Source: Tribonema minus (lineage: Eukaryota > Sar > Xanthophyceae > Tribonematales > Tribonemataceae). Taken from it: DNA of 64,000 nt. The stretch is from the NCBI GenBank assembly GCA_017506865.1, contig JAFCMP010000020.1, positions 310,001 through 374,000 on the forward strand. The letters are read 5' to 3'. The notes beneath the pieces are model-generated. The model was given only the letters and a program-made list of their open reading frames with translations. It had not been told where the DNA came from and searched no databases. The first letter of the stretch is position 1. The number at the start of each line of letters is the position of its first letter. The position numbers and the translations under genes were made by a program. Positions 13,750-61,300 of this stretch are shown one piece after another.

Positions 13750-14502
13750 CTACCCTGTGAGACTCAGGTATGCGTTCCAGATAATTGCTACGGCATTTCC
13801 GAAGAGGGTGCGTAGCTCCACCGGAACATAGTTGAAGTTTATGATCTGAGCTGCTGTCCATACCTTCCAGTTGGTGAGCAGCGCCTGCTTATATATGCCC
13901 CTGCTCGCCTGCACCGCCGCCCCCAGCCTACAGTCTTGCAGCCACCTGAGCCCGACCAGCGTTAACGCCAGGTATGGCGGCGTGAGCAGCAGTCTGTCCA
14001 AGAGGATCTTGAACAGTATCACCTGCCGCCCGCCGCTAAGCTTGCTCCACTTGCGTGCAATCTTTTCTAGGGTCCCATACCAGAAGTGAAACACGGGACC
14101 ATTGACCACAAGCCCAAACACTGTGAAGGCCCACAGCCTTTTGAGCCGCTCCCGCTGCGTTCCTGGCCCCGCTTTCCGGAGCTGCGCCCCTATGAGCTCT
14201 CCTATCGCTCCCATGCAGGCTGCAGTGATGGCTTTGGTCTTGAGAGGGTCTGTGATGAGAAGCGCTTGATAGCCCTTCCAGTACTGCACGATGCAAGAGG
14301 GCTTATGGCTGCTGTCGCATTTTTCATCGACAGCCCCTCCGCCACTGCCCGCTGCTTCTTGCAGGTCGCTCATGGCTGTATGCGGTGCGATCTCAGTGAT
14401 CTCTGGCAAGTTGCCAACTGCCACTTGAAGTTCGTGATGAAGATTTTTTTGGGGTAAAGCAAATTGGTGTGAGAGCGGTTTTGCAGCAGCAGATGATACC
14501 AT
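13750..14502 (-). CDS. Mpv17/PMP22 family membrane protein
   Basis: This is a single-exon ORF of 250 codons. The family comprises small four-helix integral proteins of the inner mitochondrial, peroxisomal or plastid membrane, thought to form channels. Residues 68-250 carry the family signature from start to end: YQALLITDPLKTKAIT, then a GPVFHFWYGTLE motif, LDRLLLTPPYLALT, NWKVWTAAQIINFNYVP and a WNAYLSLTG ending just before the stop. The first 65 residues are poorly conserved in style and could be an organelle-targeting extension. A downstream start at the Met of MSDLQEAAG is possible. Its outermost ATG overlaps that of the LRR gene on the other strand. Confidence 0.92.
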   Translation of the reverse strand: MVSSAAAKPLSHQFALPQKNLHHELQVAVGNLPEITEIAPHTAMSDLQEAAGSGGGAVDEKCDSSHKPSCIVQYWKGYQALLITDPLKTKAITAACMGAIGELIGAQLRKAGPGTQRERLKRLWAFTVFGLVVNGPVFHFWYGTLEKIARKWSKLSGGRQVILFKILLDRLLLTPPYLALTLVGLRWLQDCRLGAAVQASRGIYKQALLTNWKVWTAAQIINFNYVPVELRTLFGNAVAIIWNAYLSLTG

Positions 14503-15769
14503 GCAATCGCCTCAGCAACAGCCAAGGCGGTCTGCGCGCCACGACCAGCTTGTCAAAGAGGTTTTCAGCGTGCTGGCTCATCGGAGCATGCTCGGTATGT
14601 CCGGATGGAGCCTGTCGAAGGCTATGCACAGGGACGTGAAGCCTGTTGTGGCGCTGCTCGTTCTTGGGCCGCACGGTTCTCCGACAGCAGCTGCCGCGTT
14701 CGCCAGCAAGCATGTCGTCCATGTCAAGCTCCGCGGACGGTTCAAAGTAGACCCACTGCGCGTTGCATGGCAAGAGTCTAGCTTCCACAAGACAGTCTGC
14801 GTGCTCACCTTAGAGGCGTATGATGGGGCAGCGCTTGCGCACCTGCCACGCAGTCTGCAGCAGCTCCACATCGGATGCTGCGATCCCGTGCGCGTGCATC
14901 ACACGCTTCACGCCTTGAGCGAGCCAGGCGCTGCCCCAGCGCTGACGTCGCTCTCGCTGCACAGCTGCAAGACGCTCAGGGCTCTGCCGGATGCGCTGGG
15001 ACAGCTGATGACGCTCCGCGCGCTGTCGCTGAGCTGGCTCTGGGTGCTAACGGCCCTGCCCGAGACGCTGGGCGACCTCGCCGCGCTGACCCACCTCGAC
15101 ATCTCCCACTGCAGAGCGCTGGTCACCCTGCCGCAGTCGCTCGGCGCGCTGCGCGCGCTGACGTCGCTTTCCGTGCGCACGTGCCACGCCCTCGCCGCGC
15201 TGCCGGACTCTCTCGGCGCGCTCCCGTCGCTCACGGCGCTCGCGCTCGAGGAGCACGGAGCGCTGACGCGCCTGCCGGAGACCCTGGGCCAGCTGGCTGC
15301 GCTCAGGACCCTGTCGCTGAGCTACTGCTGCGCGCTCGCGCGCGTGCCGGAGTCGCTGCCACAGCTAGGCAGCCTCACGGCACTCAACCTGTTCTGCTGC
15401 TGGGCGCTGCCGTGCCTGCCCGCGGCGCTCGGGCGGCTGCGCGCGCTCGCCGCGCTGCGCCTGCGCCGCTGCACGGCGCTGCGCGCGCTGCCCGCCTCGT
15501 TTGGCCAGCTGCGCGCGCTGACGACGCTCGACCTGAGCGAGTGCGGCAGGCTCGCGGGGCTGCCGCGCGGCGTCTCGTTCACGGACTTCCCTGCGCTGCG
15601 GCAGCTGGAGGTGGCGGGGTGCCAGCAGCCGGTGTCGGCGGCGGCGGACGCGTGGAACCGCGCGCGGTGGCGCCGCGGCGGCAGCAGCGCTCAGTGCGCG
15701 GCGCCGCTGCCGCCGCGCGCTGCCGCTGCTGCTGCTGCGGGAGTAGATATGGACGTCGCCGCCGCCTAG
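14501..15769 (+). CDS. Leucine-rich repeat protein, 422 aa
   Basis: From about residue 140 to 355 there are nine regular repeats of 24 residues of the form LxxLPxxLGxLxxLxxLxLxxC (for example LPETLGDLAALTHLDISHC and LPQSLGALRALTSLSVRTC). This cysteine-type LRR resembles the LRR part of plant resistance proteins and algal LRR proteins. There is no NB-ARC, kinase, signal peptide or membrane segment, so it looks like an intracellular binding protein. The tail (residues 380-422) is Ala/Arg rich. The first ATG overlaps the Mpv17 ATG; Met at 14588 (MLGMSGWSLSK) is a sensible alternative start. GC content rises sharply in the repeats, which are internally similar at the DNA level. Confidence 0.85.
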   Translation: MQSPQQQPRRSARHDQLVKEVFSVLAHRSMLGMSGWSLSKAMHRDVKPVVALLVLGPHGSPTAAAAFASKHVVHVKLRGRFKVDPLRVAWQESSFHKTVCVLTLEAYDGAALAHLPRSLQQLHIGCCDPVRVHHTLHALSEPGAAPALTSLSLHSCKTLRALPDALGQLMTLRALSLSWLWVLTALPETLGDLAALTHLDISHCRALVTLPQSLGALRALTSLSVRTCHALAALPDSLGALPSLTALALEEHGALTRLPETLGQLAALRTLSLSYCCALARVPESLPQLGSLTALNLFCCWALPCLPAALGRLRALAALRLRRCTALRALPASFGQLRALTTLDLSECGRLAGLPRGVSFTDFPALRQLEVAGCQQPVSAAADAWNRARWRRGGSSAQCAAPLPPRAAAAAAAGVDMDVAAA

Positions 15770-17577
15770 AGGACTGCGGCACGCGGCTGCAGTGCGTGTG
15801 CTGCTGCAGCTGAGCAGTGGCGGCGGGAGGCGGTGCGGGGTCGAGCGCTGCTGCCAGTGCGCGCGGTGGAGCGCTGCTCGTGAGAGGACTACGGCCTGTA
15901 GGCGCCACTGCGCGCAGCTGGTGGGTGTGTGGCGATGTGCATGCGCGCACGCTGTTAGCCGAGCAAAAGCAGCCTGCGCGTTCCGCCGCGCCGCGTTTGC
16001 AAATGGGACCGCACTGGCGGCCAAGTTCGATCCGGCCGTGTTCGCATCGGATAAGACCTGTTAAGACAGGCAAAAGCAATGTATGTAGGCCGCCTCCGTG
16101 CGGCGAGAGCGCTACAAGTCGCATGCGCTGTGCGGCAGACGGAGCCATCGGCAGCTGCTGCTGTGCTGTACATAGCGGTAGGCGCGACTGCTGCTGGAGC
16201 GTTGCAGATGTATACCTACCCAGTGGCCATTGCACCACTGTGTGCCTATATATCAGGACATCAAGGGCTGAGGGATCAATCGCCAGGTCATCATCATCAG
16301 CAACGCCAAATCCTCATCTGAGCTGGACATGTACATTCTCCGGGCTGCATGTAGCACTTTCGATGACGTGCAACTTAGAAATGACTGATGTACATAGTCT
16401 CAAAAATAGTATACCTTTGGCATTTGGCACTGGCAGCCACACACGGCAACATCAATTGTAAATCACAGGGCTTCCGCTGCTTAACACATTGAAATGGAGT
16501 GTCAGACTGCGGGTGCTTCATGCTGCTGAGCTGCTGCTACTGCTGCCGCACACAATGTATGCTCGTTGTGTGCTTGATCTTCCTGCAATGCAGCTAGGCA
16601 GTTGTGTTGCTGCTTCGCTGTAGGGAGTTCACCACAGTTTTGCCTTGCACATTGACCAAAGGCGCGTGTACTGTGAGCTGGACGGTCAACAGCCTCTCTT
16701 GCGCACACAAAATGTGGATTGTTAACCTGCTGTTCACTCGCTCTGGGCGCGACACAAAAGCCTGATGTCCATCAAAGTTAGCATTGGGGGGCCTATTGTC
16801 AGCGCCATTGTTATGCTGATGGTATTGCCAGCAAGCGCGCTCTGCACCGGTTTCTAAAGTAAGTACACGTGTGTTGACCATTCAGAAATAGCATCGCAAC
16901 ACTAATAGAGGGACAGAGCAAGGCAGGGCCATGGCGAGGAACCCATCACCAGCTTTGTACAGTCTGTGCACATTAGATGTATTTCACTTAAAAGAACACA
17001 AATGCTGGCAGAAAGCAGTACCATGCAACGCTGACGTGAACACCCCTGGAGGCCCCTGTGCCGATTCCCGCGTATGCCCATCAGACGCCTGTTGAACGCG
17101 CTAGTTGAGCAGTTGCACCGCCCGGCAGCTGCGCAAGGAGTTGAAGTGCGTGCGACCTGTGACCCTGAGCCACGGCAGTTACACTCTGGTAGGAAAGCTG
17201 CCCGTAGGCAACAACTGGCTGAATGTCAAGACCCTGGCCGGCCACATCCCCTCCCACTATAGTCCTGATGAGCCAAAATGGATGCGCTGCGCACAGGAGG
17301 AGTCTGCGGCTGCAGCGCCGCCGCGCCGGCAGCAGCTGCTCAGGCCTCACTCTCACCCCGCAGCAACGCTCAGCGTCTGCAGCATCGCTCAACAGCAGCG
17401 CCCGTCCAGAGCAACCCGCGTTAACACGCACCAAAAAGACGCACGAGAGGCGCCGGCAGCAGCGCAGCAGCAGCAGCAGCGCTGGCGACGCGCTCGCCGC
17501 AGCTGCAGCAGCAGCACGCACTCAGCCCCCCCCCCCCTCCCAGCGCGCCGCGCCCCCCCCCCCCCCCCCCCGCCCCC
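15770..17577. other. Intergenic, no gene recognised
   Basis: Open frames in 15.8-16.5 kb look like GC-rich read-through. A short plus-strand stretch near 17.1-17.3 kb (GKLPVGNNWLNVKTLAGHIP) looks protein-like, but it has no recognisable family and no clear exon borders. 17.52-17.58 kb is C-rich 3' flank of the PRL gene. Confidence 0.45.
17527..17577. repeat. Long C/G homopolymer runs next to the PRL stop codon
   Basis: On the coding (minus) strand the stop codon is followed almost at once by a run of about 20 G, then a second run of about 11 G. Such RNA can form G-quadruplexes. Other runs of 9 or more C/G lie at 9401, 10352, 12121, 18298, 46970, 55281 and 56469. Confidence 0.75.
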
Positions 17578-17840
17578 TCACATGACGGCGCACGTGCCGC
17601 GCCGCCGGTGGCGCGTCGGCGCGTAGCGCTCGAGGTACGTGAGCTGCTTGCGGTTGATGGCGCCGCGGCGCCGCTCGCGGATGTACTCGACGGCGTGGAT
17701 CGGGTCCATGCCGCTCTCGATGAGCGCGATCGCGACGAGCACGGGCGCGCGCCCGAGCCCCGCCACGCAGTGCACGGCGATCGTCGGCCCCCCCCCGCCC
17801 CCCTCCGCGCCGCCGCCGCTGCTGCCGCCGCCGCCGCTGC

Positions 17841-17871
<31 letters not shown>

Positions 17872-18763
17872 GCTGGTTCCCTGGGCCGGCGCAGCAGCGC
17901 CGCCGCCGCCGCGGAACGTGACGTCGACGACATCGAGCCACTGGTTGATGATCTCCTGCGGCGGGGCGTCGCCGTCGGGGTACTCCATGTGGTGCATGTC
18001 TATGCCCGCGCGTGTGACCTCCTCCGCGGGGTACGTGTCCTCGCACACGCGCACCATGCTCACCACCTGGCCGCGCAGCGGGGAGGGGGGGGGGTGAGCA
18101 TGGAGAGGGGTCTGCGGTGTCCTTGGTTGATTATGATGGCATGGCATCGGCTTTGATCTGGAATGAGATTTGATGGATTCCTTTCGCTGGGGAACTTGAC
18201 GCGTGTGTGCACCGTGGTCATTGCAACGTGCGCCCCAAGAAGATTTCAAAGGAGACCTGTGCTCATGCTTCGGCCAGGACAGCTGTGCGGTGCGAAGGGG
18301 GGGGGGGTGCTCACATTAAGCCATTGACTTGCCATGTCGGTCTTTCAAACCATACTTGCAGAGATAACCAAACACCGTGAAGATGATCTCTGCCCACCAC
18401 ATGTGACGCATAATCGTTGATGCAGAGTATACTGAATAGGCCTGCAGAATTGCAGCCGCGAAAGCAGTGCGCACGGCCAGCAAACCACAAGTTCACGGTG
18501 CCTCCATCACGCGACCGCAGCGCCTTGCGGCATGCCAGCGACACAAGCGACGAACAGAGTGCGGCAAGCGTCTTCTGTTGAAGTTTGGGATTGTTGAAGT
18601 TTGGGCCTCTCACGTTGTGGCGCTTGCACTCCTTGAGGTAGAGCTGCAGGTTGTGCGCCTTGGGCGCGTCCATGATGAGGAAGCTGAGCTTGCGCCCCTT
18701 CTTGTTGGCCCACTCGATGAGCGACGGCCGCGTCGCCAGCGACGTCGCGTGCACCAGGACCAT
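17578..18763 (-). CDS. PRL-type (PTP4A) protein tyrosine phosphatase, 2 exons, 212 aa
   Basis: PRL phosphatases are small, prenylated, membrane-attached enzymes. Exon 1 (18763-18614) encodes MVLVHATSLATRPSLIEWAN to CKRHN and ends at a gtgaga donor. Exon 2 (18066-17578) starts after ggccag with VVSMVRVCEDTYP; the junction is phase 0. The P-loop reads HCVAGLGRAPVLVA, the exact PRL form with Ala after the Arg. The general-acid loop is YPDGDAPP. RRGAINRKQLTYLERY is also diagnostic. The protein ends in CAVM, a CaaX prenylation box preceded by Arg residues. A Gly/Ser insert of about 45 residues sits just before the P-loop, where other PRLs have a few residues. The ATG lies in a good context (ggcggccATGg). 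The intron of 547 bp has a C-rich acceptor tract. Confidence 0.93.
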
Positions 18764-26289: not shown

Positions 26290-26680
26290 TTTTTTGCAAA
26301 ATGATTGTCACAACATACATGTAGACTCTGCTAGCAACTGATTTGTGAGCTTGGCATCAACCGTGCATCTGGGGTTTTCACTTTGCGTTGCCAATTGTCA
26401 CAAGTTACATGTAGACTCTGGTATAGCATTCGATAAATGTTGCTTTGAAGCTTGAAATCAACCATATTTTAAACCGTGCATTGGGTTTTCGTGCCCTACG
26501 CAAGAAGAAAAACAGTACAGAGGACATTTTGCGATGGCGTTTGGCAGATCGCCAGTGCATTGAAACAGTTTCAAGTTGTCACACAAGAAACATGTAGGTA
26601 CACGCAGATTCCGTACAGCAGCATCAAGTTAGACCATCATCTGGGCTTTTTCGCGCCCTGAGCGAGAATTAATAAAAAGT
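26290..26680. repeat. Three diverged copies of a roughly 110-bp dispersed repeat
   Basis: Units at about 26306, 26395 and 26575 share the order ttgtcacaa..acatgtaga, gcatcaa and a gggtttt/gggctttttcgcgccct ending. The last copy ends in tgagcgagaattaataaaaa. The same unit recurs at 55390-55475 and 56013-56130, so it is dispersed. The sharp end at aataaaaagt suggests an element terminus. Confidence 0.7.
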
Positions 26681-27298
26681 TCAGGGCCCATCATGGTGAC
26701 CTTGGCCTGCATGAAAACTTTGAGATGGAGTCTGCGTGGAGCTGGGTGGCCCTTAGAAGGGTCTGTCTGTGGGGGGAGAGTCTTGCAGCTTTGTTTGGTA
26801 TCCCTGCTAGTGTGTGGGGGACAGTCGCTTGCGGATGCTTTGTTGGGGGTGATATGGGAGGCCCGGTGAACCACCGTCCCGCTCATCAAGGAGGCGATGT
26901 TTTGCTTAGTTATATAGCCTTTCTTTCTAGCATCAGCGCCTGGCGCCCAGTGACTCCCTCTGCTTATCTTTATGATATCGGGGTTCACGTAGATAGCCAC
27001 AATCTCCAGTTCAGGGCCCATTATGGTGACCTTGGCCTGCATGAAAACTTTGAGATGGAGTCTGCGTGGAGCTGGGTGGCCCTAAGACGGGTCTGTCTGT
27101 GGGGGGAGAGTCTTGTAGCTTTGTTTGGTATCCCTGCTAGTATGTGGGGGACAGTCGCTTGCGGGTGCTTTGTTGGGGGTGATGTGGGGGGCGGGGTGTG
27201 GCGTGCAAGCTTTGCATGCTACGTCCAAGAGTGAGAACAAGGCGACACACCTACAACATGGCATTTCCACAGCCACAAGTGGAATATAATAAAAGTAC
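26681..27298 (+). repeat. Left arm of the outer inverted repeat, built of 330-bp tandem units
   Basis: The unit starting tcagggcccatcatggtgac (26681) restarts at 27011, a period of 330 bp. The arm ends with ggaatataataaaagtaca near 27298. The same sequence in reverse complement is at 37192-37955. The plus frame is open through both units and encodes a 110-residue repeat (WSWVALRRVCLWGESLAALF). I do not recognise this protein. Confidence 0.88.
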
Positions 27299-27466
27299 AC
27301 GCTGGTAGCAATGTACTGCGTCACCCATCTGGGCGTTCTGCGAAGATCATCGCCCCTCAAGCTGTTACAGTTTTGGGTATGCACCTTGGTTAGCAAGGGT
27401 GCATACCACCAGGGAGTTCTGAGTACCAGGGGGTGCTTTATGATGTCACCACTTGGGGGTATTCTC

Positions 27467-27648
27467 CATATTTGGGCCAGCCTGGCCCAAATATCTCGTG
27501 GGCCAGGTAGGCCACGTCATCCGCTGAGAACTGCGCTGCTGCCGCACCCCGAAGAGACACTCATTGTGCCCCAGCAAAGCGCCCCTGGTGGCGTACGACA
27601 GCTACTACACTAGCTGTTGCACCAGCAGAGCGTTGGCGGATGGGGCGA
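27467..27648 (+). repeat. Left terminal inverted repeat of the MULE
   Basis: It pairs with 36420-36590. The first 27 bp form a near-perfect palindrome around ggccagcctggcc. The match continues through ctgagaactgcgctgctg and gtggcgtacgacagctacta to gcgttggcggatggggcga. Confidence 0.85.
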
Positions 27649-28707
27649 AGCCTACAGAGCACGTTGGAGTCATCAGGTGATGCCTGGCAGTCGCTGCAGC
27701 TCTCCAGTTGCGTATCCTTCCCGTGCATCATGGCATTGCCTTGCATGTCGGTCTGTATCGCCTGTGCGAGCCTGGAGCAAGTCTTGTTAATCACAGTTGC
27801 CTCAGACGCAAGTAAGATGCAGGGCGCCAGCTTTCGCTGGCAGCCGAGGAGTCGAGGGCAGCACGGGAGTTTCACAAACTTCAATCGTTGGTCTTTCGCG
27901 TTTCTACTGATGTTGTTTCTGCCTTTAGCGTGTCTTCTTGCTACATGACCATGAGGTTTTAACTTATATTAACACTCGTTTTTCTTACATCGTCGAAAAT
28001 GTATGGGCTTTGGGTGGCTTGGGGCCTCTAATTCCTTAATGGCGACTGCTGCAGGACGCTTCCATAAGCATCATGATGGCGCTTATCCTGCGTGTGATGT
28101 GATTCATTGAGCATCTTGTTGGCAGTTGAAGGTGAAGCACTCAGCATTGTATACTGGTGCAGAAACTAGTTCGGGCTTACTACCAAGAAACCGCCAAAAT
28201 ACTTTGCTACTGCCCCCCCTGCTAGTTTGATGTGCCTCAAGTATTTAGACGTTGAACAATTTCCTCGTGCCATGCAGTGTTAGATTACGACTGCCTGGAA
28301 AAATCAGTGGTGTCCTTTGCCCACGCCTGAACGCATGGCGCCTTCATGTCTGAAGCCATCTGAATACCAACCCCTGACAGCGCCGGTGCCTCTATGCACG
28401 CATGCATGCGGCGATGCACCTGCCAACGACGCACTGCAGCCGCATTTTCAGCGCGCTGTGCGAGAGGGACGACAGGGACGTGCGCGACAACAGCAGCAGC
28501 TCAGCCGTGCTCTCAACGCTTAATGTGGCGGCGCTTTCAGGCGCGCATGAGTCGGCAGCAGCGACACCACGTTCATGGTCTCAGCGCCAGCAGTGGCGGC
28601 GGTGCGCGCACGCGATGGGAGTGTGCATAACAGCCGTTGCGGTTCAGCCGCGTGCACAGCATAACGCCTTTTATGGCACTTGTATCGCATGGCGGTACCG
28701 GCGATAC

Positions 28708-29004
28708 GTGCTTAGAAGGCAGCGGCGCCAGTGCAGCAAGCGCGGTGCGTCGCTCCAGCTCCTCCACGCACTCGCCGAGCAGCGCCATGCCTGAAAGGCG
28801 TCGGCGTCGGCGGCGTGCGGCGCGCTGCCGCCGCCGCCGCGCGCGAGCGCGTGCCAACGCCGCAGCATGCGCCACAGCTGCGGCGTGGCGTCGAGGCCCG
28901 GCGGGCGCAGTGCCGTGCAGCGCGGCGACCTTGCGCGCGATGGCGGCGCTCGTGCGCGGCTCGCGCATCTGCGCCGGCGTCAGCGTCTGCGCCTCCAGGA
29001 ACTC
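28708..29004 (-). pseudogene. Choline/ethanolamine kinase exon fragment, frameshifted
   Basis: Minus-strand reading after a cgccag acceptor gives EFLEAQTLTPAQMREP, then IARKVAALHGTAPAG, which matches the kinase pattern EFxxGxxLxPxxMxxPxxxxxIARxLAxLH. The next expected block (LDATPQLWRMLRRWHALAR) is in the +1 frame after an extra G near 28895. A later block (LLGECVEELERRTALAAL) returns to the first frame. The exon would end at a gta donor at 28708. The catalytic HND exon and the 5' exons are absent nearby. It lies inside the MULE terminal repeats, so capture by the transposon is the likely origin. Confidence 0.68.
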
Positions 29005-30297
29005 CTGGCGTCGAGCAGGCGGGCCGGGGGGGCGGGTGCTCTCGACGGCAGCAGAAGAGGCGGGGGCGCATACGCCTGAGGAGCAGCAGCGCCTGGCACG
29101 GCACAAGGTGCTGCTCACTTGATGTAATCAAGCGCGGACGGGCGTGGCAATGGCACGCAGCCGCCAGACACTTCAGCAGCAGGTGTTCCAAAGCTGCGCA
29201 ACACTAGCGCAGCTGTTGTGACTCCCACCAGCGATCTGGCTGTGTGCAGCACATAGCAATGTGCATGAGGGGCATGCTGCAGCAGGTTTTGTCCGACAGG
29301 TGCATCATGAGCAGCTTGGCTCATGATGCACCCTCAGCTGCGTCAGTTGCAGATGGAAGCGCGTAGCATGCTGGACGCTTTCAACAATTGTGAGCATGCC
29401 TTGGTAAATGGTGGCACGTCAGCTGTGGCTGTGGCGACGTTTAATAAATGTTCGAGGCTTTACTACCAACACCTACGCTATACTATGAAGTATAGTTGTC
29501 CAACATGTTTCGTCATCCACGTATGACTCTGTCTTGTAGGCTCTTTTGACTGTTGACGCTTGATGCATGATCATGATGCTTACACATGAGGTTTCTTGTG
29601 CATGATCATACCTTCCCTGTTGATGCTTGATGCATCATGCTTACACATTAGATTTCTTGTGCATGCTGCACACCTTCCTGTTGGTTGCTTCATTTGAAAC
29701 TCGAAAGGTTGGCGATATATATATGTATCACGCAAACATTATGAACTTGCGTGTTTCGCTTTGCAATGTACATGAATCAATGCAAATGGCCAACTCGGGT
29801 GCTGGTACACGGGTGTGTGTGCTCCCATCGCACATTGGACAAGCATCAAATTGAATGATCGCACATTGCTGCCCGTTTGATTGTGGCTGCTGGATTATTG
29901 AGCATACATGTGGTCTTGTTGCGCCAGCATCCATCCACACAACCTTACCCTAAATCTTGACACAATCATCACCTGTGCTTTGGCGTGCAATGTCCCAAAC
30001 AGCTGACGTGAACCACTTCATGCTACATGCATGTATACGAATGCCTCAGAGGGTCTCCAATGAGAGTGTAAATTGTGTGCACGCACACATTTGCAGAGCG
30101 AGCTCATATTCCTATCACATGCATCACATGCACACCCATGCATCTGATGGAAGCCGAGCGCAGCATTGACAAAGCTGTCTGCAAGACAGTTCAGATCATG
30201 CATGATCATCTTAAGGGCAAAAACACAATCTTGCAAGAAAGATGAATGCATCAGAGATGGAATGCCAATGCAAGGAATATATTGCACATGCAAGCGT
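29005..30297. other. Non-coding MULE interior, 3' of the transposase
   Basis: There is no gene. A direct duplication at 29545-29670 (gatgcttgatgcatcatgct and atttcttgtgcatg words) and AT-rich sequence lead to the transposase stop codon. Confidence 0.5.
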
Positions 30298-33200
30298 TTA
30301 GGTTTTCTTCTTCTTACTGGGGCCAGCTGTGCTGCTCCGTGCCCGTTTCCCCAATACTTTCTGTGTACGCCTCTGCCTGATGAGTGGGTCATGGACATTG
30401 CCTGCTACTCTATCACGTGCTACTTGGCTAAGGTACTTCATCAGTTCCACCGCCTCCTGAGGTGGCAATGACTTAACATCCGCAATGAGATTCTTGGCAA
30501 GTCCCCAGATTTGGGCATGCGCTATGTCAACGCTCAGCTGCTGAGGCTCATCCACCCCCATTGCATCCCAGTCATCGCATGCTGCAGCCCCCACACCAGA
30601 TGCGGCAGCTGCAAATTGCCTTGCAGCAAGCGCCACCACTTTTGCTAGTACTATCTCTGTACCTTCACCAGTGAGAATGCAGGCTGCCGCCTTCACACGG
30701 GAGGGGTGGAGCCACCTCGAGTGCGTGTTGCGGAAGATACACTCTGCAGCTGAGCGCTGCACGCGTGAGCATTGTGCGACAGTCGCCGTGGTCAGCACTG
30801 GGCTTGCCGCAGTCGCTGATGCTGCCGCCGCCGCCGTCGCTGGTGCTGTCGGCGGCGCCGCTGTCGCCGGCGCTGCGTCCATGCTGTGCACAAGCGGCGC
30901 TGCTGCCGCTGCTGCCGCTGCCGCTGTCGCCGGCGCTGCCGCCGCTGCTGTCGCCGGCGCTGCGTCCAAGCTGCGCACAAGCGGCGCTGCTGCCGCTGCC
31001 GCTGTCGCCGGCGCTGCCGCCGCTGCTGCTGCCGCCGCTGTCGCCGGCGCTGCGTCCAAGCTGCGCACAAGCGGCGCTGCTGCCGCTGCTGCCGCTGCCG
31101 CTGTCGCCGGCGCTGCCGCCGCTGCTGCCGCCGCCGCTGTCGCCGGCACTGCGTACATGCTGCGCACAAGCGGCGCTGCCGCCGCTACTGCCAGCGCTGC
31201 TGTCGCCGGCGCCGCGTCCATGGTGCGCCCAATGGCAGGCGGCGCCGTAGCAGCTCGCACCACTGATGCCGCCAGCGCCGGCGTCGAAGTCCGTCGCGAG
31301 CACACAGTCAAGATGTTTGTGCTGGGGCTTGCTTTGCGTGCACTGCTGAGCACCAGCTTTGCGTCCGCCGCCATGAGCCCTTGAAGCCTGCGCCCATCAA
31401 TTGCGGTGACAGAGTCACCTACATGAATGCGCCGGCTCTCCTCCGCTGGCAGCAGAGCCCCTGTTGATTTGTTGCGAGTGAAGCTGAGCACTGTGACCGT
31501 GTTGTCCGTGAAGCCGAGCTCAACTCCAAGACTCTCTCCCACCATCATGCGCAGTGATACATCATGCGTAGTGTACGCTTGAAGTTGAGTAGCACCGCCT
31601 GTGGCTGCCGCTGCGCTGGATGCTGCTGTTCTGCTGCCGCTGCTGCTGCTGCTGCTGCGCTGCCGCTCCTCCGCGCCGCTGCTGCATTGCTCATCTTCCT
31701 CGCCGCCGCTGCTGCCATCGTCCGCGCCGCCGCTGCGCTGCCCCTCCTCCTCACCACTTCCGTTGCCCCCTTCACCAGGCAAAACTGTCACTCGCGGCAA
31801 GCACGCGAGGACATGGCGGCACAGCATGCCTGTCCGCATAGTCTCCAGGCAAGTGCACAGCGCAGCTCCTGAGGCAGTTATCACCACAGAATGGCACGAG
31901 CGGCCAAGAGTGGAAGCTACAGAAAACCATTCCTGTGCGCCAAACGCTGTGTAGTTGTCTGCGATGTCTTGCAGCATGCTGATGCTTGCTCTGTGATGAT
32001 CATTCTCGTCCAGTGCTGCATCGGGCTCAGCCTCCACGGCCCACTCTGCAAGCAAAGAGCACATGCCATCATGCTTAGTCAGTGTGAAGTGGAACACAGT
32101 AACCCGTTGTGCTTGCTCCACTTTCACCACTTGGTGCGCGATAGTCGTCACTTAGTGTCTATTGAGCAGCAAGGATGCTGCTGTTGCCTGCCAGTAACAA
32201 TAGTTTTGAACGACAGTGTCAGAAGTACGGCCAATGTAAATGTGATGATATCAGAGATGACCACACATGTAACACATGCCTAAACTAGTTGCTAAGCTGG
32301 TCGCTGACACCAACAAATTTTGTGTTGTGCAGCCTTTCGTTTGACCACACACAAAAAGCATAGCAATCTAATTGAGCACTGATGTGGTGATGATCACTGG
32401 GGTCGATATATGCGCTCAAGCCGCTCTGGACACGCTGCTCCTTGTATGCAATGAGGTTGCAAGACTGCCACTATTGAAGTGAAAAACTTTCTAGCTAGCC
32501 TAATGACCCGAACCGTTGATGTTGAAGTTAGGAGTTCATGTTACCTACTTGAACAGAAACTCAATTGGAACTTTTTGAAGCAAAAACAAGCTGCTGAACA
32601 TCAATTCTTGGTAATTGTACAACTCCTGTTTGCATGTACCTGAGGTGTCGCAGTGATCCTGCCTCGCCAGCTCAACATGATAGCGCGCAGCAGCTCCAAC
32701 TTCCTGAACGAGACACGTGAAGCAGTGCAGCGTCCCGTCCTGCTGAGCGACGTCCAGAAGCGGCTGATAGATGTTGCGAAGCGCTGCATCCACGCCTTTG
32801 AGCGCTACGCCATATGCCCGATTTGTGGCCTTGTTGTAGAGCTGGTCTTCGGCGCTGTATCTGCTGGTGATGCGGTCAATGGTGGTCTTAAGGACGCAGA
32901 GGGTGCTGAGCTTGTGAAGCTCAGATTTGATCTTGGCGAAATATCCCTCACACCGCTGGGTAGAGTTGATCCCCAAGGTGAGGACGCCGATGCGGAAGTA
33001 GAATGCCCACCGCTGCCGTATGGGGTAGATGGTCGTGTTCAGGTACTTGACAACATCGGCATCGGCTTTGCCAGCACTCGCAAGTGCACGGTGAAGTGCG
33101 GTCCAGGCGCGCTCAAAGCAAACCTCCGTGGGTGCCCTGGATGATCGATGCAGACACTTCTTGAAGACCTGCCAATGGCATCGAGGTGTAAGTGAACTTC

Positions 33201-36126
33201 AAGTTGATGAACACTGCAGCATTGAAGCTGTATCAGCCAGTGCGGCAGATGCAAAGATAAGGCCTGCATGGGTGCATAAAATACTATTTTGTACATTATC
33301 GTGGCACAGCAGCAAAGGACAATCATGATGGTGGCGCCACACGCACATTCATTTTGTGACATGTTATTTGACCGATGATGTTGCGCTGGCAATATCGCAA
33401 CATGCGTGTTACTTGAATGGCCATTGCCATATTGGGTTCTGTGAATTGCTGCTGCAGCGGTCTGCTTGGTGTGGACCGAACATGCATGAGTGAATGAGCC
33501 TCCATAGCATTGCAATGTGTCCATGATGGCTTTCTGCTTTGCAGCACGCTCCAACCCAATGCTGTTGATGGTACTACCGCTGGCAGCAATTTAGAGCCGT
33601 GGATGTCAGGTTCATTCACGCTATATCATTTAAAACATTTGAGTATGATATTTTACATACAGATAGCATGCGCGCAGTTTGCAAAAAATTTCTCTACGCC
33701 ACGTTCACCAAGGTCAAATACCTCAATGCGCGCATCACCATTCCGAATTGGCAACTTCAGAGTAAACATTTGCCATACATTTGAGTATGTTAATTTTACA
33801 TACAGATAGCATGAGCGTAGTTTTCAACGTGTTTCCCTACGTCACGTTCACCAAGGTGAAACACTTCAATGCGTGCATCACTTCCGGATCGGCAACTTCA
33901 CCTTCAAGTTGAACATTTGCCATACGTCACACGGTTTTCAGCAGTATGTAGAAGAATAACCCCTCCCACGCAGTCAAAGACGGGGAAAATGAATATTATG
34001 AGCCCATGTTGCAATGCCTACGTGAACTGAAAATCATGCCCCAGCTATGCAGTAATGCAACATCAAGTCAAGCGGGCAAGCAAAATTTGCACTTGCCTGC
34101 CATGTTGAATCGCCCAGCTTCCCCTTGAGCTTCTCCTTCACATTCTTGACGAAGTGCCACTCGCAGATGAGGTGCACTGTTCCTGGCCAGGAAAGCCCCA
34201 TGGCAGCTTCCGCAGCAAAATCCCTGCAATGGAGGTGAAAAGCAGATGTTGCATGCGCATGTGAGACGGCTGTGCGCAAGGCGGGCTACTGGGCACACTG
34301 ACAATGATATCATTGACATCCCCACCATAATTCGCACACCTGTCTGTGAAGCACACACGAGGGTGCTTGCCGTCCACCATTTTCACGTAGTGGTCAAAGA
34401 ACCACATGAATGCCTCTGTGTCCTCCTTGTCCAAGACTGCCTGGCAGAAGAGTCGTGTCCTGTACACCAAGAGCGCCGCAGTGAGTCGCAGTGAGAAAAT
34501 GAATGCATCGCTCAGCAACATGCAGTCAATTGTTAAGAACAGTGAAAAAGCAGTGTAGTCCATCAGCATTTGGCAGCTATACAGTATCGCTGACTGCCAT
34601 GTCAATCACTGCAGTTTGGTGACGGCATGCATTCAGCATTATTACATACTGCTCACTTGCTCTCGCCGTTCACTCCAACGATCACGCTCAGTGGCAGGCC
34701 ATACTTGGTGGTGCCAAAAGTGCAGTCCTGCACAGGCGGCACAAAAGCATAGAAGTTGAGCGGAACATGATGTGTTGTCATTTCGTCATACAGCGATAAT
34801 TTCCTATGAGCCGTTGATGACCACCTCCATCATGGTGTGCGAATGTAGCTGAGCCAAATCATTTGGGCAAATATGAGTTTCAGTATGCACACTGTGACCG
34901 CATTGGTGCTGGGTTTTCCAGAGGCAGCTGCTGATCAAGTAGTAAGCGATGACAATGACACGGTGACACCAGTCAATTGCAGCGCACTGGCAATTACATA
35001 CAGTACATCGTCAAAATATTCAGACCATGGGGTGGCAAGAGGGACAAAGTATACTGCCTTAAGACTAGGTACGTCATGATGCTGCATGAGTTGAGTGCAG
35101 CAGCCATTGAAGCATCACCGGTGCAGTAACAGCAGCATACCTGTTGGACTACATCTAGGCCAAAGTCCTTAGCGGCTCGACCTGCTCCTGAGTAGCCCAA
35201 AAAGCGCGCCTGAACGTGCAGTCCTCCTGAAGGTCGTATGATGCGTATCCTCCGTTGGCCTTCACCTCGCAGAGCGCTGCGGATGAACTCTTTGCTATCA
35301 CCCTTGGTGAATGCAATGCGTGCTCTGACGTCAGCTTTTGTGTTGTTCAGCAGGGCGAGAGCTGATTGATCAAAAACCGCTGTGAAGTCACCGCCGAAAT
35401 GATGAGTCACGACAGTCTGCTGAAGCACCTTGCCACTCATAGTTGGTGCGGCACTCCAGTTCCTGACGTTCTGGATGATGTCATCTGTGAGGTCTTCCCT
35501 GGTGATGATGCGACCTGTATTACCAGGTGGCGCCACCGGTTCAGTCATGGCACTCAGCGCGTGATTGTGGCCCTCGTGGAATGATGTGAGTTGGGAAATT
35601 GCCCATGGTGGCTCGTGGCTGGCATTCTGGCATGAGTTCTCATCTGGTGCTATGTGCTGCTCCTTTGACACTGACTGTTGTCTGAGCTTTACAAGCCACT
35701 TGCACTCGCACTTGATGCATGTGCTTGCGACTGCACGACGCTGCGCTTCTGGGTGCGTCTCTGAGCGCTTGCGAGGTGGTTTGTCAGCACAATGGCAGAT
35801 AATCCAGAACAGAGGAGGGCTGCGTTGTTTGCTCTTGCAGTATACCTTGAAGCCAGCACTGGCAGCATACGTCTGCACCGCATCGATGGCATGCTGCCGG
35901 GTTGCAAACAGCCTGCTGTTGAGGTCAGCACAGACCTGAAAATGGCGAGGCAGAAAACAGCAAAGCTATCAGGCAGGGATGCTGTACAGATCAACGCAAG
36001 TATTGCATTACAGACAGGTATATACACTCTTTAACAGAGGAACCAGACACGTACCTCAGCGTCTGTCACGTTGTGGACCGCAGCAGTCTGTAACGAAGGC
36101 GCTGACAGCTCCTGGAGCTGTTCCAT
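30298..36126 (-). CDS. MULE transposase with FAR1-like, DDE, SWIM and PDZ-like domains, 7 exons, about 1188 aa
   Basis: Exons on the minus strand: 36126-36055, 35935-35141, 34727-34657, 34459-34340, 34223-34097, 33168-32640 and 32150-30298. All join in phase; the fifth intron needs a GC donor (CAG|gcaagt). Exon 2 has the FAR1-type start (SRLFATRQHAIDAVQTYAAS) and a zinc-ligand region (CIKCECKW, then HNH). The catalytic triad is complete: D in DCTFGTTKYGLPL, D in CFTDRDFAAEAAM and E in GINSTQRCEGYF. HLICEWHFVKNV is the usual MULE motif. The SWIM finger reads CTCLETMRTGMLCRH. Next comes a PDZ-like domain (LGVELGF, then RIHVGDSVTAIDGRRLQG), then imperfect Ala-rich repeats with LVRSLDAAPAT, and a basic KKKKT end. 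FAR1, DDE and SWIM are usual for MULEs; PDZ is not. The frame is intact, so the element may be, or may recently have been, active. Confidence 0.88.
33639..33935. repeat. Tandem duplication of about 145 bp in a transposase intron
   Basis: The unit catttgagtatgatatttta to aacatttgccatac occurs at 33639-33780 and 33778-33930 with about 85% identity by eye. Each contains cacgttcaccaaggt. It lies in the intron between transposase exons 5 and 6. Confidence 0.75.
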
Positions 36127-36419
36127 CTCAGGATCTGTGGCGCCACAACAGGAACTGAATTCAGCAAAAGCGAATACGTGTTGTGCTCACGCAGGATTCA
36201 AGCGCATACTTATAAATGTACGTAACTTGATGCGTTGCTTGGTGCTGTGTGCTACACTCAATGGTGCACAAGCAACTTGTCCAACGTGAACACACAGACA
36301 AGCAGTAGTGCGGCAACGACAGTTGGCGCAGTGAGAGGTGCATTTCGCGTGACGCCGCACCTGGAGAGCTGTGGCGGTCGCCAAGGCCTCAAAAGTTGTC
36401 AGTGTATCAAGCTCTGCAA

Positions 36420-36590
36420 GCCTCGCCCCATCCGCCAACGCTCTGCTGGTGTAGTAGCTGTCGTACGCCACCAGGGCGCTTTGCTGGGCACAATGAGTGT
36501 CTCTTCGGGTGCGACAGCAGCGCAGTTCTCAGCGGATGACGTGGCCTACCTGGCCCACGAGATATTTGGGCCAGGCTGGCCCAAATATGG
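36420..36590 (-). repeat. Right terminal inverted repeat of the MULE
   Basis: This is the reverse complement of 27467-27648. It lies about 290 bp upstream of the transposase ATG, so it may hold the promoter. Confidence 0.85.
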
Positions 36591-37191
36591 GCTTCGGTAT
36601 TCTAAGGGGATTGTCAAACCCTAGCCCTAGGAGCTTCTAAACAGATTCACTTGTCTGGTTGGCTGGAAAGCAAGACTGAGAGCTTCCTCCCACCCACATC
36701 CTGGGCCGGCCGTCTACATAGGCTGGCTAGGGTCACCAACATCAGGCAATCTATGCATGACATTCTGTGTGACATTCATCCAGTATCACTCCTACATGAA
36801 TCATCCCCCTGGTCAGCATGCATGTTGTATGTTAAAAAGCGACATACAGCACATGTGCTTAAAAGCAAGAGTTTGTGTTGGCAAGAAGTGTGGTGTGCAA
36901 GCTTTAGCATATGCATATGCACTGCCGCATAATATGCAGTATCCTTGACTTTCATGAGCGACCTTGACAGCCCCTCCCTACCAGTAGCTATAGCGTGCGG
37001 CAACTTTACGTGACCGTGCTTTGCAGGGTGACTTCTTCTTCAGTAGCAAGTCCACCTGATGGTATTAATCAGGTCTGCATCTGCACTTATGATCTTGTAT
37101 TTATAGCAGCCCCAAGGTGGGCTTGATGCGTTGGATAAGAATGCAAAAAACTAAAATCGGACGGGCCCTTAGAGCCCTGCGTTGCAGGCTT
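36591..37191. other. Spacer between the MULE and the outer right arm
   Basis: There is no gene. The corresponding left spacer (27299-27466) is shorter and not alike, so the inner and outer inverted repeats are separate layers. Confidence 0.5.
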
Positions 37192-37955
37192 GTACTTTTA
37201 TTATATTCCACTTGTGGCTGTGGAAATGCCATGTTGTAGGTGTGTCGCCTTGTTCTCACTCTTGGATGTAGCATGCAAAGCTTGCACGCCACACCCCGCC
37301 CCCCACATCACCCCCAACAAAGCACCCGCAAGCGACTGTCCCCCACATACTAGCAGGGATACCAAACAAAGCTACAAGACTCTCCCCCCACAGACAGACC
37401 CGTCTTAGGGCCACCCAGCTCCACGCAGACTCCATCTCAAAGTTTTCATGCAGGCCAAGGTCACCATAATGGGCCCTGAACTGGAGATTGTGGCTATCTA
37501 CGTGAACCCCGATATCATAAAGATAAGCAGAGGGAGTCACTGGGCGCCAGGCGCTGACGCTAGAAAGAAAGGCTATATAACTAAGCAAAGCATCGCCTCC
37601 TTGATGAGCGGGACGGTGGTTCACCGGGCCTCCCATATCACCCCCAACAAAGCATCCGCAAGCGACTGTCCCCCACACACTAGCAGGGATACCAAACAAA
37701 GCTGCAAGACTCTCCCCCCACAGACAGACCCTTCTAAGGGCCACCCAGCTCCACGCAGACTCCATCTCAAAGTTTTCATGCAGGCCAAGGTCACCATGAT
37801 GGGCCCTGAACTGGAGATTGTGGCTATCTACGTGAACCCCGATATCATAGAGATAAGCAGAGGGAGTCACTGGGCGCCAGGCGCTGACGCTAGAGAGAAA
37901 GGCTATATAACTAAGTAAAGCATCGCCTCCTTGATGAGCGAGGTCACGGCTCACC
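37192..37955 (-). repeat. Right arm of the outer inverted repeat, with 330-bp tandem units
   Basis: This is the reverse complement of 26681-27298, extended by a further half unit. In the minus frame it is open across all units (part of a 321-codon frame ending at 37256) and reads the same 110-residue repeat as the left arm. Unit-to-unit changes are often silent in this frame (CTC/CTT twice, TTA/TTG, CTT/CTA, AGG/CGG, GGA/GGG), with few replacements (H/Y, A/V, V/M). It ends about 600 bp upstream of the alcohol dehydrogenase ATG. Confidence 0.85.
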
Positions 37956-38562
37956 GCAGGCTGCAAGCCTGACAAGATATTGCCATTTACCGCTGCGAGT
38001 AACTTGTGGTTGGTGCCGTGGCGTGCAGCCGACTCCGCTTGCTCTCCAAGCACGCCAAGCCGCTCCCTGTCCCTCCTCCGCACGCCAGCCAGGGCTTCCG
38101 AGACACCACCACACGTTTGAAGTTCTCTCGAAGGGGCTACGCACGCTGGCATCACCTGGGGGCCGCTGGTGCTAGCTCCTGCAAGCCCTGCAGCCCAGCC
38201 CACCCACCAAACCAGCCGCATTCGCTGCCACGCCTTTCGGCGTTAACGAGCTTGGGACGCTGCCTGTGTTCAGTTGTACTTGTACTAGACTCATGGGGGG
38301 CAGACACAGCGGCACCCAGTCTGAGCCACACCTATCGTAGCCGATGTCTCCATCTCTTGAGCGAAATGCACTGTATGTGTCAGGTCTGCATACTGGCCGA
38401 CTGCCGCGGCTACAGAAGATGATCCGATCATTGCGTCATCTGACGTGCATCCTGTCTGGCCGAGAATTTCGGATCTGTCCTTTGCTCTGCTCGCTGCTGT
38501 CGGGATACACATCCAACAGCCAGTGATAGCGGAGCGGCTGACATCCAGTTGGAAAGTCAGCG

Positions 38563-48345: not shown

Positions 48346-49903
48346 TCACGACAGCCGCGCCCGCTTGGCTGGCGCAGGGGGGCGCTCCGCCGGCGCCACC
48401 TCGCTGCACCCCCCGAACGCTGCGCACACGAGCAGCCGGTCCGCGACGCAGCCCAGCCCGGCCTCGGCAAAGTCGCCGGGCGTCGCCAGCGCCAGCCAGT
48501 GCGCCTCCTCGACGTGCCCGCCGAGCAGCGCCCACAGCGCTTCTGCGATGCGTGTTGACTCCGCCTCCGTCATGCCGGGGTCCAGCGCGTGCGCGAGTTC
48601 CCAGTGGGACTGCGTCGCCGCCGCCGCCGCCGCCGCCGCCGCCAGCGGCGCCTGCGGCGGCAGCTTCACCGCTGCGGCTGCCGCCGCCGCCGCTGCCACG
48701 GGACCCTCGCTGCACAGCCGCTCGGCCGCTTCCGCCACGAGCCGCGCCGGAATGCCCCACGTGACACGCGCGCCGTCCCCCCCGCGCAGCGAGGCGAGCA
48801 CTGCGGGGGTGAGCACGGCGCACTGGACAGGCGTCGTGAAGCCGGCGCGGCACAGCGCGGCAGCGAGCGCGCGCGCGGCCGGCCGCTCTGGTGGCACGCG
48901 CAGCGCCGCCGCAACCCACCCTCCCACGTCAAACGGCGCCGCGCCGCCGTCGCCGCCGCCGCAGCTGCCGCGAGACGTGTCTGTGCCAGCAGTGTTTGTG
49001 GCGGTGCCTGCAGCTGTTGTTTCAGGCTTCACAGTTGTGGTATTGAGCACTGCTGCTGCCTGTTTCTGCTTCTGCGCTGCTGGTCGCTCCGCGGCTGCCG
49101 CCGCCTCCGCTACGGCAGCTACTGCGTCGTCCTGCTGCCGCCTGACCACCTCAAGGGTCACTGACTTTGGATCTGGCTCTGCCACGGACGCTGCTGGCGG
49201 CGATGTTGCCGCCGACGGCGACTGCTCAGGGCCTCGATTGGGTTGCTTGGCTGCGGGCCGTTGCCTTGTCGACTTTAACGGCAGCTGGTGCCTCGCACCG
49301 CTCCATGGGTTGCTCTGCGATGAATACTTCTGCCGCAAACTGGATCCTGTTTCCTCCAATGGTCACCGCTCTGAGCACTGACTGCGCTGCCACAGCTGGT
49401 TGCGGCGGCGGCGCCACTTCTGCGGCTGCCGTTTGCTGCCGTACTGACGCCGCAGATGACGCTGAAGTATGCAATGCTGCTGTGACTGCGTTGTCGGCGC
49501 CCACACGAAGGCGGCAGCCAGCAGCAGCGGCTTCAGTGCCGGAAGTTGACGCAACTCTGAACAACGGCGGCACTGCTGCAATGCCTGTCACGCTACCGAG
49601 GCGCACATCATTGCGGTGTGGCGAGCTGACCTGCCTTGTCACCTCTGGTGATTCTGCTGCAGGAGCTGCTGCTGGGCCTGCCGGGAATGTCGGCAGCAGG
49701 GCGAACTGCCGGAACTCGCAAGCGGTGCGCCAGTGGTAGCCGCAGCGGCGGCTGGCAGCGCAGAACTGCCTGAACTCACCAGCAGCGCGGTAGTGGCAGC
49801 GATGGCGGCGGCTGCGCCAGGATGTAGCCCAGCCAAGGTGTTGCCTTGCGGGTCAGTAGCTTGGTGCTGCTGCTGGTGCTGGTGCTGGTGCTGCTGGTGC
49901 TGG

Positions 49904-52876: not shown

Positions 52877-55267
52877 CTACGGAGGAGCCGGCGGTTCGGC
52901 GCTGGCCGGCGAGGGCCGCGGCACTTGCAACAGTGCGATGCGGCGGTAAGCGCTGACGTCGCCATCAGGGGCAATGACTGCGTTCCAGTTGTCGATCACG
53001 ACACGTGTGAGCGCGCGCTGTAGCGCGAGGGAGGTGCGGCGGCGCCAGAAGGCAACGCGCTGCGCGAGATTGTAGCTGCCCTGCGAGCTCTGCTCGGCGA
53101 GTGCGTGTAGCAGCGCTTGGGTGTCGCGTGACATAGCGCCGAAGTGGTCAAAGGCTGCGGAAAATAGGGTGTGTGTAGTGGGGTCCAGGGCCCCTGAGAC
53201 TACGTATGTGTCTATCTTTTCCTGCGAAGCCGATTCAAGCACGCGCTGCACATCGCGCGCGCCCCCCTGAGCCTGACGGAGGCGGGAGGGGCATGAGCTG
53301 TCACGTATGGTGACGTCTATGCAACAAGCTACTTCAAAGCCGCCGCGCAGTTTAGTGCACCGGCCTGCTGCTACCGCGTCGGCGCTCGGCTGCACTTTAG
53401 GGACTGGAAGGCAGACCTGGTTGCTGCCAAAGACGATGTCCATGAACTTGTTGAACCCGTGGCGCGCCGCGTAGCGGCGGAAGGGGGCAAGGGTGTCCCG
53501 GTCGAGACCGCGGAGGTGGGCCACCTGCTTGAGCATCTGAAAGAGCGCGTCTGCGAGCAAGTTGTGTCGCGTGACGTTAAGCCCTTGTGTGCAGCGGCGC
53601 AGGTGGGCACCCGAGTCCACTGGTCTATGGCACTTGGGGCACCGCGCCGCAGCGGGGGCGGGGCGCTCCACGCCCAGGTGGCGCCGCAGCGTCTCGCGGA
53701 ATTCCGGCGGGGACATGGTCTCCGCTGGGTCAGTGCTCGGCAATTGCGCCAAGAAACCCATGGCCCCCTTAGAGGCGCCGCTGCGCCACGCCGCGACTGC
53801 TTCCAACGCATTTGCTGCTTCAAGCCGACGCAGCTGCGTGGCGGCGAGCGCTGCGTCTAGCACCCGTGATAGCGCCGCTTGACGCCGCGGCAGCACGGCG
53901 GCCGGCGGGGCCTGGGCAGAGCCTGGCTCGCGCGCCACCGCTGGCGCAGCAGCGCGGCGCGCGCCGGCGCGAGTCCGCATGCCCGGCCCCGCAGCTCCGC
54001 CTGCCCGTTGCAGCAGATCGCGCAGCGCCCGCCATGCGCCGTCGTCCTGGCGCCAGTCCTGGTACCAGACCGTGGGCAGGAGCAGTGCGAGGGCCGCTGC
54101 AGCCTCATCGCTGCCGCTGCGCAGCTGCTGCAGGCAGGTAGCTATCTGGGTGAAGGTGAAGCCATAGCGGGCATGCTCTAGGACGCGGCTGCGTGCCGCC
54201 ACTGGAAATGCCGCCAGTGCCGGCCCCATGCACTCGAGGGAACGTGCAGCAAATGCGGCACATGCACGGGGCGCCGCGCCCAGCACGCCAAAGCCACCAC
54301 TCCCCAGCCGCAGATGCACGCGTACCTGCTGATGTGCTGGTAGCGTCACTGGGGCCTCGCCACCCCAGTCGGCGCCGCGTACCCATGCCACTGCCGCCGC
54401 CCACAGAGAGGGCGGCGCCGCCGCCGCCGAAACCGCCGGCGGGCCGCGGCAATCGTCACCCGCCGCCGGCGCGCGCTGGTGGGCCGGCGGCGTAAGACCC
54501 GCCGATGGCTCCTGCGCCAGCGCGGCCACGGCCGCTAGCGTGATGGCGTCGAAGCGCCGTAGCTCCTCGTGCGTGAGGGATGGCGCTGTATTGCGCGAGA
54601 CATGCCCTGCGCGGGCGGGGACGGCAAGACGCAGAATGGAGAAGGCAGCCTGCACATCCTCCATCTGCACAAGCTCCGCAACCAGGCGGTCGGTGCCGGG
54701 GGCACGAAGGGTCGCCGCCACTTGCGCGCGCACGAAGCCCTCGGTGCCGACCGGCACCCCCATCAGCGTGATGCCGTCGTCACATACTGGTACGGGGACA
54801 TTGGCGGCGGCAAAGACGGCGGCGGCGCGCTCGCGGGCGCCGCCTGAGGCCGGCACCACCGCCGCGCATTTCGTGACGTTGACCTGAATGTTGAGCTCGC
54901 TCAGCGCCTGTTGTATGAAGCAGAACGCGCGGCCAACGTGGTCGAGCACCGGCGCGTCACAGCTGGGCGTCATGATGGTGAGGTCATCGAGGTAGCCCGG
55001 AAGCGCCAGTTGCGGGAACTTGGCGCGGGCAGCCACCATGGTGCCGCGCAGTGCCAGCGCGAACAGCAGCGGCCCCAATGGGTCGCCCTGCTGCACGCCC
55101 TGTTGGGAGAGGATGATGGCGGCGTCGGCGTGCCCATCTAGGCCAAATTGTAGCCAAGGGGCCCGGCCGGGGCCGTAGATGTGCTCGACCTGAAGTTGCA
55201 GTTGTGTGCAGTGACTCGGGTTACACCACACTTGATTACATGTGGTAAAGCACTTGTTCATGACCAC
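52877..55267 (-). mobile_element. Non-LTR retrotransposon ORF: reverse transcriptase plus R2-like nuclease region, 5'-truncated
   Basis: The ORF of 796 codons starts inside the RT domain. GVQQGDPLGPLLFALAL is RT block 4 and LALPGYLDDLTIM is the catalytic block 5; the fingers blocks upstream are missing. The carboxy end has a zinc knuckle (CPKCHRPVDSGAHLRRC), an RHN motif directly after it (TRHNLLADALFQML) and VACCIDVTIRD. This arrangement is known from restriction-like endonucleases of R2/CRE-type elements. The expected PD is MD here (FMDIVFGSN), so the nuclease may be inactive. The 5' truncation is typical of target-primed insertion. The frame is otherwise open and GC-rich, so the copy is fairly young. 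Confidence 0.85.
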
Positions 55268-57089: not shown

Positions 57090-57399
57090 CTACGACTGCA
57101 TAGTGCGCGCCCGCTTGAGGGCGCGCGGGCGGCTCGCCGGCGCCCTCTCTGTGCGCCACTCTACCCCATACGCAGCGCAGATCAGCTTCCTCAGGCCGAG
57201 CTGGTGCACCTCCGCCTCCGCAAAGTCCGCCGCCGTGACATGCCTCAGCCAGTGCACCTCCTCCACATAGCCGCCCAGCAGCGCCCACAGCGCCTCTGTG
57301 AACTCGTCGCTGCGCGCGTCCGTCATGCCGGGATTGAGAGACGCCGCCAGTTCTGCCGGAGTGTTCGGCAATGAGGCTACCTCTACCGTTGAGGCAGGT

Positions 57400-57434
<35 letters not shown>

Positions 57435-57948: not shown

Positions 57949-57980
<32 letters not shown>

Positions 57981-61268: not shown

Positions 61269-61300
<32 letters not shown>

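Follow-up and report, generated by a model that had tools for sequence, protein, structure and literature searches.

The closest described systems are the FAR1/MULE/SWIM elements, such as the Jittery and MuDR groups. According to a survey of MULEs across eukaryotes, these carry a MULE DDE domain, a SWIM-type motif and terminal inverted repeats, and target-site duplications (TSDs) range from 8 to 11 bp (PMC6446971). The element described here lies in a window of 64,000 nucleotides from Tribonema minus (contig JAFCMP010000020.1, positions 310,001 to 374,000)—the window being the whole stretch of DNA that was analyzed. It likewise has a MULE domain with a candidate DDE triad, a SWIM-type motif, terminal inverted repeats and a weakly FAR1-like N terminus, and its TSD of 10 bp falls inside the published range. 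Compared with the groups of the survey, it features additional parts after the SWIM finger: a PDZ domain; an Ala-rich linker; and a conserved C-terminal region. The groups table lists SET, OTU, PMD, PHD, FAR1 and zinc fingers and no PDZ, and in the main text the term "PDZ" occurs zero times and neither "algae" nor "Chlorophyta" is found (PMC6446971). "PDZ" is equally absent from the examined text of PMC5745447, although one occurrence is indexed for that paper, and none of the titles and beginnings of abstracts listed from the open-licence literature concerns a transposase with a PDZ domain. Pack-MULEs also take up pieces of host genes, as described in the survey; they have lost the transposase (PMC6446971), whereas the PDZ in the window is in frame with an intact-looking transposase and is kept across families.

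Compared with canonical PDZ domains, namely those of MPDZ (2iwn) and APBA3 (2yt7), the PDZ in the window has its elements in the same order, with the Leu-Gly loop early, the GDxxxxIDG turn following and a helix late. It differs by sitting in a transposase and by a first residue of the ligand-groove helix that varies among families. PDZ domains typically serve as scaffolding modules that recognize the tails of proteins, and the Leu-Gly loop is their carboxylate-binding loop.

The transposase gene is an unbroken model of seven exons on the minus strand (30298-36126), with the ATG at 36126 and the stop codon ending at 30298, and encodes 1153 residues. The exons were mapped by splice motifs and homology, not RNA; all six introns end in AG, with five starting in GT and one in GC. 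The seven exons in one frame of the original prediction stand. The domain order is a FAR1-like N-terminal region, MULE, SWIM, linker, PDZ, linker and conserved C-terminal region (Table 1). In the first 665 spliced residues, the MULE family PF10551 is matched over its full profile length (E=1.2e-19, 71 bits vs a cut-off of 27.6), and ZSWIM1-3 RNaseH-like is matched below its cut-off (E=0.0015). The DDE triad, FAR1-like region and SWIM finger had been predicted as all present. A candidate triad is found, consisting of two Asp in the MULE domain (DCTFG and FTDRD) and a Glu in RCEGYF, which by their motifs are the presumed catalytic residues; the Glu motif is kept in three of three aligned families. 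The SWIM motif CxCx9CxH is there, though the Pfam SWIM profile has no match in the window copy and matches two relatives weakly (E 0.06 and 0.08). The FAR1 match (PF03101, E=0.2) is below cut-off and suggestive at most. The expected Ala-rich tail is Ala-rich—46% Ala over residues 831-1035, a stretch that overruns the linker by 38 residues—but it is a linker ahead of a conserved C-terminal region rather than a tail. This post-PDZ linker is variable between families and Ala-rich in family A. The C-terminal region is common to other families, as far as the fetched DNA and frames extend, and had no match in a Pfam search.

Table 1. Positions of the element, its gene and its domains in the window, and contigs of the split-frame subfamily
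Feature	Position	Strand	Remarks
MULE element, family A, ~9.1 kb	27466..36596	.	one gene found, minus strand
Left terminal inverted repeat	27466..27712	+	84 bp at 99%, then weaker
Right terminal inverted repeat	36356..36596	+	
10-bp target-site duplication, right copy	36597..36606	+	first 7 bases persist on left at 27459-27465
Exon 1	36055..36126	-	start codon at 36126
Exon 2	35141..35935	-	N-terminal region, weak FAR1 resemblance (PF03101 E=0.2)
Exon 3	34657..34727	-	MULE domain start, presumed first catalytic Asp
Exon 4	34340..34459	-	MULE domain, presumed second Asp (FTDRD spans exon 4/5 junction)
Exon 5 (GC donor)	34097..34223	-	MULE domain end
Exon 6	32640..33168	-	conserved core, presumed catalytic Glu (RCEGYF 32938-32955)
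Exon 7	30298..32045	-	SWIM, linker, PDZ, Ala-rich linker, C-terminal region, stop
SWIM-type zinc-finger motif CxCx9CxH	31813-31857	-	sequence motif
PDZ domain, residues 729-823	31291-31575	-	profile searches, shuffled control
Ala-rich repeat linker, PDZ to C-terminal region	30769..31290	-	composition, family comparison
Conserved C-terminal region, terminal basic stretch KKKKT	30301..30768	-	family comparison
Split-frame subfamily copies	C25, C33, C47, C146, C257, C334, C368, C464, C501		

The element is an autonomous-looking Mutator-like DNA transposon, as judged by its sequence. Its exact ends were derived from ten other copies, which start with CGAACCCCATATTTGGG and finish with CCCAAATATGGG(C/G)TTCG; the outer terminus is CGAACCCCATATTTGGG... 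and its inverse, placed between 10-bp direct repeats. The left junction of the window copy is 9 bases shorter than in the other copies, lacking 6 bases of the terminus and 3 of the target duplication. Both ends are readable in eight copies besides the window. The 10-bp TSD is perfect in 7 of the 11 copies examined, the window copy being counted in the 11; the other four are the window copy with its altered left junction, an imperfect one on C84, and those on C62 and C508, of which one end each is in the fetched stretch. The family has multiplied recently: a DNA search with 1 kb of exon 7 (30298-31298) gave 45 matches in the genome (158 Mb, 554 contigs), of which 17, window included, are full-length at 99-100% identity, two are partial at 96 and 92% and two are full-length at 79%—copy counts that are lower bounds. 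The leftover matches are shorter or weaker, many of them within the Ala-rich repeat. Exon-7 frames of 614-617 residues are found in ten copies, and family A looks recently active.

A long inverted repeat farther out (26678-27302 and 37188-37812) was considered as the ends of the element and rejected, the end regions of seven other copies having no match to it. Since the ends of the copies do not match it, this outer repeat belongs to a different, abundant repeat that the MULE entered by transposition. The repeat (26678-27302 and 37188-37956 in the window) is matched at least 44 times in the genome over 621-625 bp, with an identity of 98-100% and the two of the window included. It is inverted about the MULE in the window and arranged in tandem on C554 with a spacing of about 1.1 kb; the right flank of the C508 copy carries it as well. 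A second element gene in 27466-30297 was also rejected: open frames compared with a family B copy on C159 matched patchily, several with stops. A Choline_kinase Pfam match in the same interval (E=0.0022, below cut-off) was taken as chance.

The PDZ was studied in an alignment of residues 729-823 of the window transposase and the corresponding segments from six further families, which are 41-51% identical to that of the window. The alignment has 24 invariant columns, including the Leu-Gly of the loop (Leu16-Gly17, seven of seven families) and the GD...AID of the turn. Searched against the PDB, its profile matches MPDZ best (E=3e-7, profile positions 2-79), followed by APBA3 (8.2e-7) and PTPN13 (5.2e-6, positions 3-89). 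Of the best 60 of 108 matches with E up to 1, all but one—a ribosomal protein at E=0.14—are chains that we take to be PDZ-bearing by their names. At the level of single members, PF00595 matches all seven (best 4.9e-6), PDZ_2 six, PDZ_6 five (best 3.2e-7) and DUF6288 four (best 0.007). A column-shuffled control of the alignment gave no PDZ in Pfam and two unrelated chains in the PDB (E 0.40 and 0.43). The HMM search of the residues after SWIM, proposed with the original prediction, recovers PF00595 in each member, with the window copy by itself at 18.9 bits below the Pfam cut-off of 23.2; the PDZ of family I exceeds that of PDZ_6 (27.8 vs 27 bits). The structure prediction that had likewise been proposed did not yield a PDZ fold. 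An AlphaFold model from the single sequence, built with no alignment, is poor and uninformative (mean pLDDT 46.6), and a Foldseek search with it returned no PDZ among the best 50 of 538 matches.

The order SWIM–PDZ is found across diverged families of one lineage. Genome-wide, 68 loci were found with the PDZ query (69 matches), 67 with the SWIM query (69 matches) and 68 with the core exon query (90 matches); for the core exon, each locus was represented by its first row. A PDZ match lies within 1 kb of SWIM at 66 of the 67 SWIM loci; the exception, on C533, is at chance level (E=0.08), so that all 66 SWIM loci above chance have an adjoining PDZ match. Within 5 kb of the core, a PDZ is found at 65 of 68 loci. 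At two of the three others (C13:269610 and C529:315747), the 3 kb that were read contain no SWIM and no convincing PDZ; the third, on C28, runs off the contig end. Two PDZ loci come without SWIM: a long open frame on C531 that is not a MULE, and a short frame on C290. MULE-domain matches below cut-off are present on C74 and C18; because these contigs have no PDZ match in the genome-wide searches, it may be that a single lineage holds the fusion. Beyond this genome, viral contigs gave no confirmed match to the PDZ or the core, and prokaryote genomes gave no confirmed match to the core. The chlorophyll-binding-protein family has 92 matches in the genome, which points to a photosynthetic eukaryote, and a search for three tandem TTTTAGGG units gave no match.

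A tree of 16 PDZs of the same genome, seven from MULEs and nine others, places the MULE PDZs in one clade (ultrafast bootstrap 89), and the PDZ of C531 joins them against the other eight with a support of 93. When two host stretches (C257 and C28) are added, both groupings stay and their support goes down to 60 and 61. Host-type sampling comprises ten PDZs besides that of C531, drawn from a set of 52 PDZ_6 matches in which MULE copies are counted as well. The PDZ and core trees concur on C-D, on F-G, and on A-C-D vs E-F-G, the last with 57 in the core tree. The pattern is consistent with a single uptake of the PDZ from a host-type source followed by co-inheritance. The domain is short, and the trees lend this single event moderate to weak support. 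A single capture before the families split, with inheritance alongside the transposase from then on, is what we consider probable, at a confidence slightly lowered because of the wider tree. Outside the MULEs, the PDZ query has a single clear match in the genome, the PDZ of C531 (364268-364522). This PDZ lies at the end of a 791-residue open frame of an apparent host gene that gave no match in MULE and SWIM searches, shares 36-43% identity with the seven MULE PDZs and exceeds the PF00595 cut-off. For this frame, Pfam shows PDZ families alone and the PDB gives PDZ domains plus weak, probably composition-driven matches; our guess is that the gene is a Rav1/DMX relative. It is a possible donor or recipient of the domain.

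Selection was judged by dN/dS from a simple counting method in 12 family pairs. In eight of them (A-C, A-D, A-E, A-I, E-I, F-G, C-E and B-C), the PDZ has a dN/dS of 0.18-0.37, similar to SWIM, values that are rough because most of these pairs have diverged strongly at synonymous sites; two further pairs, A-F and A-G, have reached saturation there. These ratios support long-term constraint on the PDZ, which stays recognizable across families with a core dS of about 0.8-1.2. In the recent pairs, the PDZ stands at 1.56 (A-B, the B copy having a stop in the PDZ) and 0.83 (C-D), compared with 0.28 and 0.33 for the core—a hint of relaxed or changing selection, decayed copies among them. In nine copies of one subfamily the frame is split, with SWIM in a part of 171 residues and the PDZ in one of 259; in the one copy compared with an intact relative at the DNA level, the PDZ shows a single-base frameshift. 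Six copies in the same group retain a frame of 420 residues. Family C has a shorter frame of 311 residues in four copies, and the one that was read has an intact PDZ and has lost the C-terminal region. Since the nine split-frame copies multiplied, spread does not strictly require a PDZ in cis. Either they were moved in trans by intact relatives, or the PDZ and the part downstream of it may be dispensable in cis.

The PDZ-like module that had been expected behind SWIM is borne out by the profile searches together with the shuffled control, by the adjacency of the two domains over the genome and by the low dN/dS in two-thirds of the pairs; the two recent pairs count against it. The transposase very probably carries a genuine PDZ domain behind its SWIM finger, and the fusion is old. 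An unrelated region that happens to resemble a PDZ would agree with the sub-threshold score of the window copy and with the poor fold model, but it would leave unaccounted the match to solved PDZ domains with the same order of elements and the recurrence of PF00595 and PDZ_6 over the families against a negative control; we regard it as highly improbable. A captured host fragment with little or no function, akin to a Pack-MULE capture that stayed in frame, has more to be said for it. MULEs do acquire fragments of host genes, as stated in the survey (PMC6446971), the split-frame subfamily reached its nine copies, and the PDZ changes fast in A-B and C-D. Against such a passenger, the domain is still recognizable at the core divergence given above, evolves under apparent constraint in most pairs and adjoins every SWIM locus above chance, which makes an idle fragment improbable.

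The PDZ might also be genuine and internal, that is, a structural or multimerization module for assembly of the protein with no outside partner. That it stays at one position, after SWIM and ahead of the C-terminal region, in the compared families would fit such a module, as would the agreement of the PDZ tree with the core tree and the presumed ligand-groove helix, which varies by family and has Lys or Glu at presumed pocket positions where many PDZs are hydrophobic. The invariant Leu-Gly of the loop is instead what peptide binding would lead one to expect, given its role in carboxylate binding, and the flanking linkers differ in length; we rate a purely internal module as rather unlikely. 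For a peptide-binding tether as such, we put the chances at about even. From what is generally known of these families, cutting and joining of DNA would fall to the MULE domain, and the SWIM finger would probably assist in DNA binding. The PDZ, on flexible linkers, would bind a peptide—a C-terminus or an internal loop—belonging either to a host protein or to a partner within the transposase complex and would tether the transposase to chromatin, a cofactor or another subunit. Such a tether would aid where or how efficiently the element inserts, not the DNA chemistry itself. Chromodomain tethering by some retrotransposon integrases follows a comparable logic; here, a peptide-binding module would take that place. 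The protein ends in KKKKT in family A and KKPKS in family C, which do not resemble the usual ligands of PDZ domains; for this reason, self-binding via the C-terminus is not favored. The putative role in targeting or partner recruitment raised in the original prediction is plausible, and the explanation as a whole—an autonomous-looking MULE with a host-derived PDZ as a peptide tether of putative role—is the one we lean toward with modest confidence. A narrower version, by which the one captured host PDZ has since been used to recognize one specific host nuclear protein by its tail, thereby steering or licensing insertion, is tentative and less likely than not.

If the PDZ recruits a host partner, the element would be a natural peptide-guided transposase and would open a route to asking how DNA transposons choose partners or sites. 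The presence of recent intact-looking copies and diverged families in one genome makes comparisons of copies, ligands and insertion sites feasible.

The window contains further open frames. On the minus strand, 52880-55267 is an open frame of 796 residues that matches the reverse transcriptase family PF00078 (E=9.5e-8) and may be a fragment of a retroelement. An Ala-rich open frame of 1995 residues (57093-63077, minus) features a PHD-like finger at E=4.3e-5 (23.9 bits vs a cut-off of 24). About 220 residues at its C-terminus are 43% identical to part of a 338-residue frame several kilobases off (48349-49362, minus), and the region common to both has no Pfam name. The interval 13753-18315 holds likely host genes: a member of the Mpv17/PMP22 family; a leucine-rich-repeat protein; and an open frame whose dual-specificity-phosphatase match is below cut-off.
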